Made by a program: the position numbers and the translations under genes
Source of the DNA: Trueperaceae bacterium
Lineage (GTDB): Bacteria > Deinococcota > Deinococci > Deinococcales > Trueperaceae
Assembly (NCBI GenBank): GCA_007130855.1
Contig: SLRS01000039.1
Location: 1 to 64,000, forward strand
Direction of reading: 5' to 3'
Length of the DNA: 64,000 nt
Shown here: positions 3,967-64,000 of the stretch, piece after piece
Position numbering within the stretch: position 1 is the stretch's first letter
How the letters are laid out: every line of letters starts with the position of its first letter
Notes under the pieces: model-generated
Seen by the model: the letters and a program-made list of their open reading frames with translations, nothing else
What the model was told of the DNA's origin: nothing
Databases searched by the model: none

Positions 3967-5393
3967 TGCCCACCTCCGTCAACGCGGTGGAGACCAACCG
4001 TGTCCTGGGCCCCGGCCAGACGCCCGCGAGCATCGACGACACCGTCAACACGCCCGTCCTGGCCGGCCTCGACCGCACCCCACTGTGGTGGTGGATAGGG
4101 TTCGCGATCAGCGCGGCCCTGCTCGGCCTCTACCTGGTCTCGGTGGTGCGGCTCGTCACGGTCGGCACCGGCATCTTCGGCAACAACATGCCCGTCGCCT
4201 GGGCCATGCCGATCATCAACTTCGTGTGGTGGATCGGTATCGGCCACGCCGGCACGCTGATCTCGGCGGCGTTGCTGCTCTTCCGCCAACCCTGGCGGAC
4301 CTCCATCAACCGTTTCGCCGAGGCGATGACCATCTTCGCGGTGGTATGCGCAGGGCTCTACCCGATCTTGCACCTCGGCCGGCCTTGGGTGTTCTACTGG
4401 CTGCTCCCCTATCCCAACACCTTCGGCCTGTTCCCGCAGTTCCGCAGCCCGCTCGCGTGGGACCTGTTCGCGATCTCCGCCTACGCCACGGTCTCGCTGG
4501 TGTTCTGGTACATCGGCCTCATCCCCGACCTCGCCACCTTGCGTGACAGCGCCCGGAACCGCTTCCAGAAGCTGCTCTACGGGGTCCTCTCGCTGGGCTG
4601 GACCGGCTCGGCCCGTGGCTGGACGCGCTACATGCGCGCCTACCTGATCCTGGCCGCGCTGTCGTTCCCGCTGGTGCTGTCGGTGCACAGCACCATCGCC
4701 TTGGACTTCGCCGTGTCGGTGGTGCCCGGCTGGAACAACACCATCATGCCGCCGTACTTCGTGGCGGGTGCGGTGTTCGCCGGCTTCGCGATGGTGCTGA
4801 TCCTGGCGATCCCGCTGCGCCGTGCGTTCCACCTGCGCAGCGTCATCACCATGCGCCACCTCGACAACGCCGCCAAGCTGCTTCTGGGCACCGGCATGAT
4901 CGTGGTGTACGGCTATGCGATCGAGTTGTTCATGGCCTGGTACTCGGGCGTCGAGTTCGAGGTGTACATGGCCTACAACCGCGTGTTCGGCGCCGATCAC
5001 TGGTGGGCCTTCTGGCTGCTGATCGCCTGCAACTTCGTGGCGATCCAACCGCTGTGGTTCCGCCGGGTGCGCCAGAGTCCGCTGGCGCTGTTCGTGATCG
5101 GGGTGATCGTGTCGATCGGGATGTGGCTCGAGCGCTTCGTCATCATCGTCGTGTCGCTGACCAAGGACTTCCTGCTCAGCTCGTGGTTCAACTACGTGCC
5201 GACCTTCTGGGACTGGGCCCTCTTCATCGGTAGCTTCGGCTTGTTCGGGACGCTCTTCTTCGCGTTCTTGCGGCTGCTGCCGCTGGTCGCGACCTCGGAG
5301 ATGAAGGAGATGGCACACCACGACGCGCAGCACGGTTCGGACCACTTCGAGCACATCCGCGGCGAGTACTACGGCGAGGGGGGTCGGGCATGA
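3966..5393 (+). CDS. actC: Alternative complex III subunit ActC, NrfD-like quinol-binding membrane protein
   Basis: This is a 475-residue polytopic protein of the NrfD/PsrC family with about ten hydrophobic helices, expected to carry a quinol-binding site and take part in proton or energy coupling. It starts one base inside the actB stop (TGATG) and is preceded by a good ribosome site (GGGAGG). A soluble N-terminal stretch of about 40 residues precedes the first helix. ActF later in the operon is its paralogue, as in other alternative complex III operons. Confidence 0.93.
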   Translation: MPTSVNAVETNRVLGPGQTPASIDDTVNTPVLAGLDRTPLWWWIGFAISAALLGLYLVSVVRLVTVGTGIFGNNMPVAWAMPIINFVWWIGIGHAGTLISAALLLFRQPWRTSINRFAEAMTIFAVVCAGLYPILHLGRPWVFYWLLPYPNTFGLFPQFRSPLAWDLFAISAYATVSLVFWYIGLIPDLATLRDSARNRFQKLLYGVLSLGWTGSARGWTRYMRAYLILAALSFPLVLSVHSTIALDFAVSVVPGWNNTIMPPYFVAGAVFAGFAMVLILAIPLRRAFHLRSVITMRHLDNAAKLLLGTGMIVVYGYAIELFMAWYSGVEFEVYMAYNRVFGADHWWAFWLLIACNFVAIQPLWFRRVRQSPLALFVIGVIVSIGMWLERFVIIVVSLTKDFLLSSWFNYVPTFWDWALFIGSFGLFGTLFFAFLRLLPLVATSEMKEMAHHDAQHGSDHFEHIRGEYYGEGGRA

Positions 5394-5965
5394 GCGACGT
5401 CGCCAGCGCACCCCACGACGCCGCTGCGGGCGGCGCCGCCGAGCTCTACGGACTGGCCGCCGAGTACGCGGCCCCGGAGCAGGTCGTCAGCGCCGCCGAG
5501 GCGGCCCAACGCGCCGGATACCGGGTCATGGACGCCTATACGCCCTACCCCGTCGAGGGCCTCGACGCGGCCCTCAGCCAACCCTCCAGCAAGCTGGGCT
5601 TCCTCGTGCTGGCCGCCGGCTTCGCCGGCATCATCCTGGGCTACGGCATGCAGTGGTACGCCAGCGTGGAGTTCTACCCGCTCAACGTCGGTGGCCGGCC
5701 CCTGAACTCGTGGCCCAACTTCATCGTGATCACATTCGAAGTGACGGTGCTGCTGACCGCGCTCACCACCGCGGTCGTGATGCTGCTGCGCAACGGCCTC
5801 CCGCGGCCCTACCACTCGATCTTCAACACGCCTGGCTTCGAGCGCGTCTCGCGCGACCGCTTCTTCTTGTGCATCGAGGCTCGCGATCCGAGCTTCGACC
5901 TCGCCGGTACCCGCGCCTTCCTGGAGGACACCGGACCGCTGGCGGTGGTGGCGGTGGAGCGATGA
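5390..5965 (+). CDS. actD: Alternative complex III subunit ActD (DUF3341)
   Basis: This 191-residue protein has two transmembrane helices (about 63-85 and 104-128) between a soluble N-terminal part and a C-terminal part inside the cell. That is the layout of DUF3341/ActD, a structural subunit without cofactors. It overlaps actC by four bases (ATGA) and actE by four bases. Its position in the act order and its length support the call. Confidence 0.9.
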   Translation: MSDVASAPHDAAAGGAAELYGLAAEYAAPEQVVSAAEAAQRAGYRVMDAYTPYPVEGLDAALSQPSSKLGFLVLAAGFAGIILGYGMQWYASVEFYPLNVGGRPLNSWPNFIVITFEVTVLLTALTTAVVMLLRNGLPRPYHSIFNTPGFERVSRDRFFLCIEARDPSFDLAGTRAFLEDTGPLAVVAVER

Positions 5966-60245: not shown

Positions 60246-61037
60246 GTGACCGACCCCAGCGATTACCGCCAGCTGTTCGACCTGTCCGGTCGCCACGCCC
60301 TCGTGATCGGCGGCGCCTCGGGCATCGGCGCCGCTTGCGCGCTCGGCCTAGCCGACCACGGCGCCAGCGTGACCATCGCCGACTTGACCCAGGCCGCCGC
60401 CGACGTCACCGCCGCACGTCTGCGCGAGCGCGGCGCCCAGGCCCAGGCCGTGACGCTCGACATCACCGACGAGGTGTCGGTGGAGCGCGTGCTCGGCGAG
60501 CTCAGTGCCCTCGACGTCTTGGTCTGCACGCCGGCCGTGAACGTCCGCAGACGGCTGTTGGAGTACAGCACCGAGGACTTCGATCGCGTCATCGGCCTGA
60601 ACCTGCGCGGGAGCTTCTTCGTGATGCGTGCCGCCGGTCGGCGCATGGCCGCACAGGAACGCGGCTCGATCGTGATGTTCTCGTCCATCCGCGCGCAGGT
60701 GGTGGAGCCCGGCCAGGGCGCCTACGCGGCCACCAAGGCCGGCACGCTGCAGCTGATCCGGGCGCTGGCGGCCGAGTTGGGACCGCACGGCGTGCGCGCC
60801 AACGCCGTCGCACCGGGCGTGGTCGAGACACCGCTCACGGCTCCCATCAAGGCCGACCCCGACTGGTACCGCGCCTACGCCGAGCGTTCCGCCCTGGGTC
60901 GCTGGGCGCAACCGTCCGAGATGGTGGGTGCGGTGGTCTTCCTGGCCTCGGACGCCGCCTCCTTCGTCACCGGCACGCTACTACTGGTCGACGGCGGCTG
61001 GACCGCCGTCGACGGTCGCTTCGCGCCGCCGCTGTGA
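60246..61037 (+). CDS. SDR-family oxidoreductase
   Basis: This 263-residue short-chain dehydrogenase has the binding motif GGASGIG (22-28), the catalytic S147, Y160 and K164 (YAATKAG) and the PGVVETPLT block of classical SDRs. Activity on an alcohol or ketone is expected, but the substrate is not predictable. GTG 60246 has GGAGG seven bases upstream. The M20 gene starts seven bases after its stop, so they are likely cotranscribed. Confidence 0.87.
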   Translation: MTDPSDYRQLFDLSGRHALVIGGASGIGAACALGLADHGASVTIADLTQAAADVTAARLRERGAQAQAVTLDITDEVSVERVLGELSALDVLVCTPAVNVRRRLLEYSTEDFDRVIGLNLRGSFFVMRAAGRRMAAQERGSIVMFSSIRAQVVEPGQGAYAATKAGTLQLIRALAAELGPHGVRANAVAPGVVETPLTAPIKADPDWYRAYAERSALGRWAQPSEMVGAVVFLASDAASFVTGTLLLVDGGWTAVDGRFAPPL

Positions 61038-61044
61038 GCTGAGC

Positions 61045-62313
61045 ATGCGACCCCTCGAGCTCGAGGTGCAGGCGCTGGCTCGCGCGGCGGCGGCCGCGGT
61101 CGACGCCGCGCGCGTGGTGCGCCTCGCCCAGGCACTCGTGCGGGTGCGCAGCGTGGCCGAACCCGCCGCGGGCGCCACCGAGGCCGCCTGTGCGGCGCTC
61201 GTCGCCGACACGCTGCGCGGCGCGGGCTTCGCCCCGGTCAGCCAGGAGGTGGCGCCCCAGCGGCCGAACGTGATCTGCGACTGGGCCGGCAGCGACTTCG
61301 ACCCCGCGCGCCATCGCACGCTGCTGTTCGAGGGGCACAGCGACGTGGTCACCGAGGGTGATCGATCGCGCTGGCGTCACGATCCGTTCGGCGCCGAGCT
61401 CGAGGAGGGGCCCGACGGGGAGCGGCTGTACGGCCGCGGCAGCGCCGACATGAAGGGCGGCGTCGCCGCCGCGATCGTAGCGCTGGAGGCCGTGCGCCAA
61501 ACGTGCCCCACGCTCACCGGACGCATCCGGCTCGGAATCGTGGTAGACGAAGAAGGCATGATGCTCGGAATCAAGGACTTCATCGCGCGTGGCTGGGCCG
61601 ACGACGTGGACGGAGCCATCATCTGCGAGCCCGAGGAGCAGGAGTTGTGCCTGGTGCAGAAGGGTGCCATGCGGTTGCACGTGCGGGTCCGCGGCGTGAT
61701 GGCGCACGGGGCCATGCCCTACGCAGGCGTCAACCCGATCGCGGGCCTCATTCGCTTCCTCAGCGCCGTCGAGGACCTCCAGGAGGCCGAGCAGGCGTGC
61801 CTGGGGCCGCACGAGCACCTGGGCCTCCCCTGGCTCACGCCGACCGTCGTCGCTGCGCCCGTCCGCGGCGAGGCGCAACTCAACGTGATGCCCGACGAGG
61901 CCTATGCCGCGCTCGACGTGCGCACAGTGCCGGGGCAGGACCACGACAGGCTCCATGCGCGCTTGCGGGAGGCGGCAGACGCGGTCGTACGGGCGACGCC
62001 GAGGCTCACCATCGAGCTCGAGTGGTTCGAGAGCCGCCCCTGGACCGAGACGCCGGCCGACGACCCACTGGTGCGCGCGCTCGCGCTGGCGTACCCGCTC
62101 GTCTTCGACCGCCCGGCCCCCTATGGCGGTGTTCCAGGCGCCACCGACGGCACCTTCTTGCGCGCCACGGCCGGCATACCGATCGTCACGGTGGGCCCCG
62201 GCGACCGCACCATCCCCCACCAGGTGGACGAGTTCGTGCGTACCGGCGACCTGGTGCAGGCCGCGCGACTGTACGCGGCCGCGGCGGTCACCTACTTGGC
62301 GGGTGAGGCATGA
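61045..62313 (+). CDS. M20 family metallo-hydrolase (ArgE/DapE type)
   Basis: This 422-residue zinc amidohydrolase/peptidase of the ArgE/DapE/CPG2 group shows the metal ligands FEGHSDVV, GRGSADMKGG and the catalytic pair in VVDEEGMML, plus a late histidine region (GPGDRTIPHQVDEF). It would deacylate an amino-acid derivative. ATG 61045 lies in weak ribosome context, close to the SDR stop, which suggests coupling. It overlaps the first DUF1538 gene by four bases. Confidence 0.86.
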   Translation: MRPLELEVQALARAAAAAVDAARVVRLAQALVRVRSVAEPAAGATEAACAALVADTLRGAGFAPVSQEVAPQRPNVICDWAGSDFDPARHRTLLFEGHSDVVTEGDRSRWRHDPFGAELEEGPDGERLYGRGSADMKGGVAAAIVALEAVRQTCPTLTGRIRLGIVVDEEGMMLGIKDFIARGWADDVDGAIICEPEEQELCLVQKGAMRLHVRVRGVMAHGAMPYAGVNPIAGLIRFLSAVEDLQEAEQACLGPHEHLGLPWLTPTVVAAPVRGEAQLNVMPDEAYAALDVRTVPGQDHDRLHARLREAADAVVRATPRLTIELEWFESRPWTETPADDPLVRALALAYPLVFDRPAPYGGVPGATDGTFLRATAGIPIVTVGPGDRTIPHQVDEFVRTGDLVQAARLYAAAAVTYLAGEA

Positions 62314-63014
62314 GTTTTGGTGACTTCCGCCGCGAGCTGATCGAGACCACGCTGTCGTTGGCGCCGGCGATGCTGTTCATGCTGATCGCCCAAGTGGTCT
62401 TCCTGCGGCTCCCGTGGGAGGAGTTCGCGCTGGTGCTGATCGGGCTCACGTGCACGGTGCTCGGCTTCGTGCTGTTCATCCAGGGCGCCAAGCTGGGACT
62501 GCTCCCGCTCGGCCAGGGGATCGGGACGGCGTTCATCGAGCGCCGGGCGCTACGGCCGTTGTTGGTGTTCGGGTTGCTCCTCGGCATCGTGTTGACCGTC
62601 GCCGAGCCGGACGTGCGCCTGCTCACGTACCAGATCGAGGACGTGTTCGGTGACGCGGTGAACCGCACGGCGCTCATCACCGCCGCCGCGATCGGGCTCG
62701 GCCTCTTCGCGGTGATCGCGCTGCTGCGCATCGCTTTGGTATGGCCGATCCACTACGCACTCATCCCCGGGTACGCACTCGCGCTGGGCCTCTCGCTCTT
62801 CGCCGACGAAACGACCGTGACACAGGCGTTCGACATAGGCGCGGTCACGACCGGGCCCATGACCGTGCCGTTCCTGATCGCCCTGGGGGTGGGCATCGCC
62901 TCGGTACTCGGAAGTCAGAGCCGCATGCGCGCCAGCTTCGGCATCATGGCGATCGGCTCGATCGGACCCGTCTTGGTGGTCATGATCTGGGGCATCGTGC
63001 GGAGTGCGTCATGA
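62310..63014 (+). CDS. DUF1538 membrane protein, first half-size gene
   Basis: This 234-residue protein has about six hydrophobic helices and the DUF1538 pattern GFVLFIQGAKLGLLPLGQGIG, then AFDIGAVTTGPMTVPF near the C-terminus. The full-length family is about twice this size and holds two such halves; here each half is its own gene. The family is unstudied but looks like a transporter. It overlaps the M20 gene by four bases (ATGA) and the second half by four bases. Confidence 0.8.
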   Translation: MSFGDFRRELIETTLSLAPAMLFMLIAQVVFLRLPWEEFALVLIGLTCTVLGFVLFIQGAKLGLLPLGQGIGTAFIERRALRPLLVFGLLLGIVLTVAEPDVRLLTYQIEDVFGDAVNRTALITAAAIGLGLFAVIALLRIALVWPIHYALIPGYALALGLSLFADETTVTQAFDIGAVTTGPMTVPFLIALGVGIASVLGSQSRMRASFGIMAIGSIGPVLVVMIWGIVRSAS

Positions 63015-63733
63015 GCATCGACCTGCACGCACTCCTGATCGAGGGCGCCGTCGAGGTGGTGGAGGCGACGCTGCCGGTGCTGGCCTTGATCGCCTTCTTC
63101 CAGTTCGTGGTCTTGCGGCGTGGCGTCAACCAACCGCGCGCCATCCTGATCGGCATCCTGATGGCGATGCTCGGGTTCTACCTGTTCATCGTCGGCGCCA
63201 AACTGAGCCTGATCCCCATGGGTGTCGCCATCGGCCAACTGCTCGCTGGCGCACCGGTCGGCGCCGTGCTGGCGTTCGCCTTCGTGCTCGGCGCCGCGGT
63301 GGCATTCGCCGAGCCGGCCGTGCGCATCCTGGCGTTCGAGATCGACGAGGTCTCGGCCGGCTCGCTGCGCAAGCGCTGGATCGCGAGCGCCGTGGCGCTC
63401 GGCGTCGGCCTCGCGGTGGCGGCGTCGGTGCTGCGCATCGTCCACGAGCTGCCGCTCGCGGCGGTGCTGGTCCCGGGCTATGCCCTGGCCATCGTGTTGA
63501 CGCTCTTCACACCGCGCGACATGGTTCCGGCTGCCTACGATGCCGGCGCCGTGGCCACCGGGCCCGTCGCGGTCAACTTCGTCTTGCCGCTGACGACCGG
63601 AATGGCGTTGGCATTGTGGGGTGAGGATGTGGGCGCGCTCGGGTTCGGCGTCGTCGGCATCATCGCGCTAGGGCCCATCATCAGCATGCTCGCGTTGAGC
63701 ATCCTGCTCCGCCGAAGGGATTCCGATGCCTGA
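63011..63733 (+). CDS. DUF1538 membrane protein, second half-size gene
   Basis: This 240-residue paralogue of the preceding protein has the matching blocks GFYLFIVGAKLSLIPMG and AYDAGAVATGPVAVNFVLP. The two probably form a heterodimer in place of the single fused protein. It overlaps the first gene by four bases and the P-II-like gene by eight bases, so all three are probably made together. Confidence 0.8.
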   Translation: MSIDLHALLIEGAVEVVEATLPVLALIAFFQFVVLRRGVNQPRAILIGILMAMLGFYLFIVGAKLSLIPMGVAIGQLLAGAPVGAVLAFAFVLGAAVAFAEPAVRILAFEIDEVSAGSLRKRWIASAVALGVGLAVAASVLRIVHELPLAAVLVPGYALAIVLTLFTPRDMVPAAYDAGAVATGPVAVNFVLPLTTGMALALWGEDVGALGFGVVGIIALGPIISMLALSILLRRRDSDA

Positions 63734-64000
63734 CAAGATTCGTTTCAAGCTGCTGGTCGCGATCGTGTCGCAGGGCCGCTGCTCCCCGCTGGTCGCAGCC
63801 GCGAAGGCGGCGGGTGCCGAGGGAGCCACCATCATCCGGGGACGCGGCACCGGCGTGCACGAGGGCGCCAAGTTCCTGGGCCTCCCCATCGAACCCGAGA
63901 AGGACGTCATGCTCGTCCTGGTGCCGGTGGACGTAGCCGAGGAGGTGCTCGACGCGATGGTCACGGCCGGCGAGCTCGACAAGCCCGGCCACGGCATCGT
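63726..64000 (+). CDS. P-II-like signal protein, cut by the window edge
   Basis: The first 91 residues of a P-II-family protein are visible (FKLLVAIVSQGRCSPLVAAAKAAGAEGATIIRG-like start, a short T-loop region RGTGVHEGAKFLGLPIEPEKDVMLVLVP, then the alpha-beta repeat). The residues that carry uridylylation in GlnB (the T-loop tyrosine) are not seen. Canonical P-II proteins bind ATP and 2-oxoglutarate and control transporters such as AmtB. ATG 63726 overlaps the DUF1538 stop by eight bases. It continues beyond base 64000. Confidence 0.82.
   Translation, partial: MPDKIRFKLLVAIVSQGRCSPLVAAAKAAGAEGATIIRGRGTGVHEGAKFLGLPIEPEKDVMLVLVPVDVAEEVLDAMVTAGELDKPGHGI

Follow-up and report, generated by a model that had tools for sequence, protein, structure and literature searches.

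Two overlapping genes of the DUF1538 family, followed by an overlapping gene for a divergent P-II protein, form an operon at the end of the DNA stretch analysed here (64,000 nt of contig SLRS01000039.1 from a Trueperaceae bacterium; hereafter the window). We propose, with a probability of roughly 0.7, that this operon encodes an antiporter of the UmpAB type, controlled by a P-II protein of its own that docks on the cytosolic face. That the P-II protein controls the transporter in some way we regard as highly probable. The link between P-II and DUF1538 is strong and widespread, and it is apparently unreported: a literature search, which had most subscription journals outside its reach, found no paper connecting the two. 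The genes and their junctions are listed in Table 1.

Table 1. Genes and gene junctions of the DUF1538/P-II operon and its upstream neighbours (window positions)
Feature	Position	Strand	Basis and remarks
SDR oxidoreductase, local neighbour outside the core system	60246..61037	+	PF13561
M20 ArgE/DapE-type deacylase, local neighbour outside the core system	61045..62313	+	TIGR01910 above cutoff
DUF1538 gene A, UmpA-like half, 234 aa	62310..63014	+	PF07556 E 6.4e-60; predicted N-terminus cytosolic
A/B stop/start overlap, 4 bp, ATGA	63011..63014	+	Junction sequence
DUF1538 gene B, UmpB-like half, 240 aa	63011..63733	+	PF07556 E 1.7e-54; predicted C-terminus cytosolic
B/P-II overlap, 8 bp	63726..63733	+	ORF coordinates and junction sequence
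Divergent P-II gene, 117 aa	63726..64000, continuing to contig position 64079	+	PF00543 above cutoff

PF07556 (cutoff 22.6 bits) covered the full length of both A and B, which were 33% identical to each other and shared corresponding motifs (GAKLGLLPLG/GAKLSLIPMG and GAVTTGPMTV/GAVATGPVAV). Coordinates, profile matches and motif sequences thus bore out the preliminary description of this DNA, which had reported two overlapping DUF1538 genes with matching motifs and a P-II-like gene overlapping the second. The P-II ORF runs past the end of the window; extending the analysis along the contig (65,099 bp), as that description had proposed, completed the gene at 63726-64079. Against PF00543 (cutoff 25 bits) it scored 30.4 bits for the truncated part and 37 bits in a whole-genome scan, and judged by its sequence it is a genuine but divergent P-II. 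Just beyond the window, contig positions 64170-65099 (3170-4099 of locus L003) carry an apparent DppC-type permease gene that is convergent with the P-II gene. A congener (G078) has two diverged copies of the A/B/P-II operon (contigs C1 and C323; loci L231 and L232), with 62-67% and 82-89% identity to the window genes.

The linkage of P-II to DUF1538 was surveyed in 80 genome loci and in samples of Actinomycetota, Chloroflexota, Bacillota and the window's own phylum (111 genomes). The query for the 80 loci was an alignment of B halves, which biased them to Bacillota, and Pseudomonadota were thinly sampled, through plasmid loci only. After exclusion of loci fetched by P-II query, 150 distinct DUF1538 units had 650 bp or more of downstream sequence; local HMM scoring of ORFs placed a same-strand P-II domain no further than 1.5 kb from 148 of them. 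The two units lacking P-II were L049 and L068, and the genome of the latter has another DUF1538 unit with P-II. In the window's family, P-II was present at every DUF1538 locus whose contig extends far enough.

Co-occurrence by genome was nearly perfect. Among 300 Bacillota genomes, 100 carried both, one carried DUF1538 only, three matched the P-II profile only and 196 had neither, which places P-II in 100 of 101 DUF1538 genomes (P = 4e-75, a value inflated by shared ancestry, which is not the case for the near-perfect pairing itself). All 87 P-II domains of this sample with DUF1538 listed on the same contig lay 30-1214 bp from it. In 72,556 plasmid records the P-II query and the DUF1538 query matched the same nine and no others, and at every annotated DUF1538 locus read on plasmids a 'P-II family nitrogen regulator' came next (Methylocystis, Vescimonas, Chelativorans, Paraclostridium and Peptoclostridium). 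The preliminary description had stated that absence of P-II from DUF1538 loci in related genomes would speak against its reading, and had suggested a survey of neighbourhoods; what emerged was near-universal adjacency, genome-by-genome co-occurrence and occasional fusion.

The two components occur in several architectures: DUF1538 as one half, as two genes or as one fused gene, and P-II with one, two or three domains. The counts included 74 loci with fused DUF1538 and tandem P-II, 28 with split DUF1538 and one P-II, and eight with single halves and one P-II, besides others. At eight loci (L185 among them) DUF1538-DUF1538-P-II was encoded in a single ORF, and at seven of these eight a separate tandem P-II gene was also present. 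Such fusions are evidence that transporter and P-II work together, and from them we infer that P-II associates physically with A and B. The one-, two- and three-domain variants may also bear on how a trimeric P-II fits two transporter halves. In locus L078 a fused DUF1538 gene is directly followed, across an ATGA overlap, by an ORF with three P-II domains (4768-5790), possibly a single-chain P-II trimer. At locus L036 (4740-6257) the two genes behind a single fused DUF1538 both encode tandem P-IIs, which makes four P-II domains, and an actinomycetotal locus (Mobiluncus; L067:2400-6566) holds two DUF1538 units in succession, the P-II being tandem in one unit and single in the other. Pairs of a single-half DUF1538 gene and a P-II were seen at L123, L133 and L152-L156; systems of this kind may be dual-topology homodimers.

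The preliminary description had further coupled the transporter to the SDR oxidoreductase and the M20 deacylase. The M20 gene overlaps A by 4 bp and the SDR gene lies just upstream, and this arrangement was seen within the window's family alone. In one congener (G077) the operon lies beside RluD with no SDR or M20 detected, and SDR/M20 matches were found at none of 87 DUF1538 loci from other groups. We therefore treat the two genes as local neighbours and reject the coupling as a general feature.

The statement that DUF1538 is normally one protein did not hold either. Split pairs predominated in the samples of Chloroflexota, Actinomycetota and the window's family and were common among the Bacillota sampled, and the characterised UmpAB also consists of two genes. 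In a tree of half domains, A halves and B halves fell mostly into two groups; the sampled fused A halves all grouped in a single clade nested within the split A halves, and the sampled fused B halves likewise in a single clade within the split B halves. The window A and B rows sat on long branches and their exact place is unsure. Because the fused clades are nested in both half-trees, the fused protein looks derived, by one fusion after the A/B duplication. We consequently reject a split of a normally fused gene as the origin of the window's two genes.

Positive charges were distributed as mirror images between the A and B halves (145 A/B pairs). A halves had 4.1 (fused) or 3.1 (split) Lys/Arg per sequence at the N-terminus and 0.1 or 0.7 in loop 1-2; for B halves the corresponding values were 1.1 and 1.5 at the N-terminus, 3.4 and 2.6 in loop 1-2, and 4.2 and 3.9 at the C-terminus. 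Eight rows classed as single halves were intermediate in charge, and one of them (L024) is a B half whose partner is truncated. Under the positive-inside rule, the mirror-image bias indicates that A and B are inserted in opposite orientations, predicting an antiparallel pair with a cytosolic C-terminus of B. This placement agrees with what the P-II fusions require.

AlphaFold2 models were confident for a DUF1538-DUF1538-P-II fusion homologue (pLDDT 87) and for window B (pLDDT 93, pTM 0.87). Foldseek searches of the PDB with the membrane part of the fusion model and with window B gave no match (best E about 1; TM below 0.25 for window B), and PDB sequence and profile searches with DUF1538 returned nothing of note, so that the modelled membrane part appears to match no solved fold. 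The P-II domain of the fusion model, a natural homologue and not the window P-II itself, matched SbtB/PII structures with probability 1.0, though at an E of only about 0.02, and the SbtA-SbtB complex came first.

In a tree of P-II domains, 138 DUF1538-linked rows separated from nine canonical rows with a support of 100/100. For the most part, N-terminal domains of tandem P-IIs clustered apart (the alignment has few columns and the deep forks are open). T29, G35, K58 (K or R), G89 and F92 were mostly kept in single, C-terminal and fused DUF1538-linked domains. Lost were Q39 (replaced by His, Glu and others), D88, K90 (Ile/Leu/Val), R101 (Gly) and R103, and the T-loop was shortened, with 17 residues spanning positions 37 to 58 vs 22 in canonical P-IIs. 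Given these losses and the short T-loop, classical ATP/2-oxoglutarate sensing and uridylylation are not expected. The window genome also encodes a canonical P-II (92 bits, G000:C146:1503-1856) directly behind an ammonium-transporter gene, which reads as amtB-like from its ORF sequence. Since this canonical pair lies elsewhere in the genome, the DUF1538-linked P-II is not the cell's GlnK. In the amtB-glnK pair (G000:C146:217-1856, L238) the P-II has Phe at the usual uridylylation position.

What the divergent P-II does could be read in other ways. Many PII proteins have several targets, and the protein might be co-expressed with the transporter while acting on an enzyme or a transcription factor, the linkage then reflecting a shared need instead of contact; eight in-frame fusions, a near-obligate one-to-one co-occurrence and a separate clade make this very improbable. 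We also think it unlikely that the P-II domain is a structural subunit that has lost sensing. The canonical ATP/2-oxoglutarate residues are indeed gone and the N-terminal domains of tandem P-IIs have diverged strongly, but T29, G35, K58, G89, F92 and an IEPEKEI segment are conserved over several phyla, which suggests that a pocket has been retained. The P-II might bind c-di-AMP, which controls K+/Na+ homeostasis in many hosts; it would then be a receptor like PstA or SbtB, linking the antiporter to a potassium/osmotic second messenger. A c-di-AMP-bound structure exists for SbtB, the closest fold match, and a diadenylate cyclase is encoded in the window genome and in 16 of 19 other tested carriers. 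No cyclase was detected in three of the 20 carriers (two 1.8-Mb Chloroflexota genomes and one possibly partial MAG), for which reason we reject c-di-AMP as a universal ligand; it is unlikely to be the only one, and a c-di-AMP receptor is on the whole an improbable identity for this P-II.

The nature of the transported ion is a separate matter, for which UmpAB of Halomonas zhaodongensis, the only characterised DUF1538 member, is the point of reference. Its two genes overlap by one base, and UmpA and UmpB confer Na+(Li+,K+)/H+ antiport when co-expressed and co-immunoprecipitate as a heterodimer (PMC5484666). The 'uncharacterised transporter' of the preliminary description accordingly needs qualification, as the family is not wholly uncharacterised. 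The UmpAB pair is already known and P-II is no part of that published story: the paper does not mention it, and the cloned fragment, which was functional in E. coli, lacked a P-II gene (PMC5484666). P-II is thus unnecessary for basic activity. Gene A scored 118.1 bits against NF041627 (UmpA; cutoff 490) and gene B 101.5 bits against NF041628 (UmpB; cutoff 500). With scores so far under the equivalog cutoffs, A and B are family members and not proven UmpAB orthologs, and their substrate may differ. It is quite conceivable, if less probable than not, that P-II controls a DUF1538 transporter whose substrate is neither Na+ nor K+ but, for example, a different ion or a small weak acid or base; the UmpAB antiport would then be branch-specific or a side activity in antiporter-deficient E. 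coli. Besides the low scores, such a substrate would suit the frequent occurrence of DUF1538 in Bacillota from the gut and from digesters, anaerobes with no obvious link to salt stress, and no solved fold allows a comparison of binding sites. Against it, conserved E-P, D and R residues in the membrane segments are common to all DUF1538 halves, and acidic residues are conserved in the UmpAB set too (PMC5484666).

We retain the antiporter reading, in which A and B would form a secondary transporter of the UmpAB type, most likely a monovalent-cation/H+ antiporter, with its two homologous halves antiparallel in the membrane; antiport and heterodimer formation are carried over from the homologue UmpAB (PMC5484666). 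The third gene would supply a dedicated cytosolic regulator, a T-loop-shortened P-II that docks on the cytosolic face and alters transport according to a small-molecule signal, with a ligand other than canonical ATP/2-oxoglutarate. Gating would most likely be inhibitory; SbtA-SbtB (PMC8352866) and AmtB-GlnK suggest, as analogues, that P-II would close off a cytosolic cleft.

More broadly, and at somewhat less than even odds, the operon may represent an unrecognised multi-phylum class of P-II-controlled antiporters, with a fold absent from the PDB, two antiparallel halves and a dedicated P-II clade in which a non-canonical ligand chemistry is housed in one, two or three domains, perhaps as an asymmetric ring of P-II seated on a transporter of pseudo-twofold symmetry. 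Such a ring, if real, would be an exception to the rule that the transporters on which P-II acts are trimers. A major transporter family would join the short list of P-II targets, and ion/pH homeostasis would be tied to a metabolite sensor in about a third of the sampled Bacillota species, gut anaerobes included. Proteins now labelled 'P-II family nitrogen regulator' and 'DUF1538' gain a testable function, with the warning that the DUF1538-linked P-IIs are probably not nitrogen regulators. DUF1538 also offers a membrane fold for which PDB searches found no solved relative.

Among known systems, UmpAB resembles the window pair in its paired overlapping DUF1538 genes, with seven predicted TM segments each, and is itself a heterodimer; it differs in its distance from the window A and B and in that its clone functions without P-II. 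AmtB-GlnK shares the conserved pairing of transporter and P-II genes, from which cytosolic gating is proposed by analogy, but the DUF1538-linked P-II lacks the ATP, 2-oxoglutarate and uridylylation features of GlnK. The best PDB sequence-profile match of the DUF1538-linked P-II was 9p1x chain H (E 8e-9), by our own reading of its sequence a NifI1-like P-II; it too has a short T-loop but keeps the canonical GDGRIF B-loop, which the DUF1538 P-IIs lack. In SbtA-SbtB, a Na+/bicarbonate symporter with the PII-like SbtB (PMC8352866), the transporter and its own divergent PII likewise share one operon, and the P-II domain of the fusion has its best structural match in SbtB. However, SbtA is a trimer of another fold, whereas the DUF1538 transporter looks like an antiparallel pair, and the DUF1538-linked P-II has a short T-loop and is still recognised by the Pfam P-II model.
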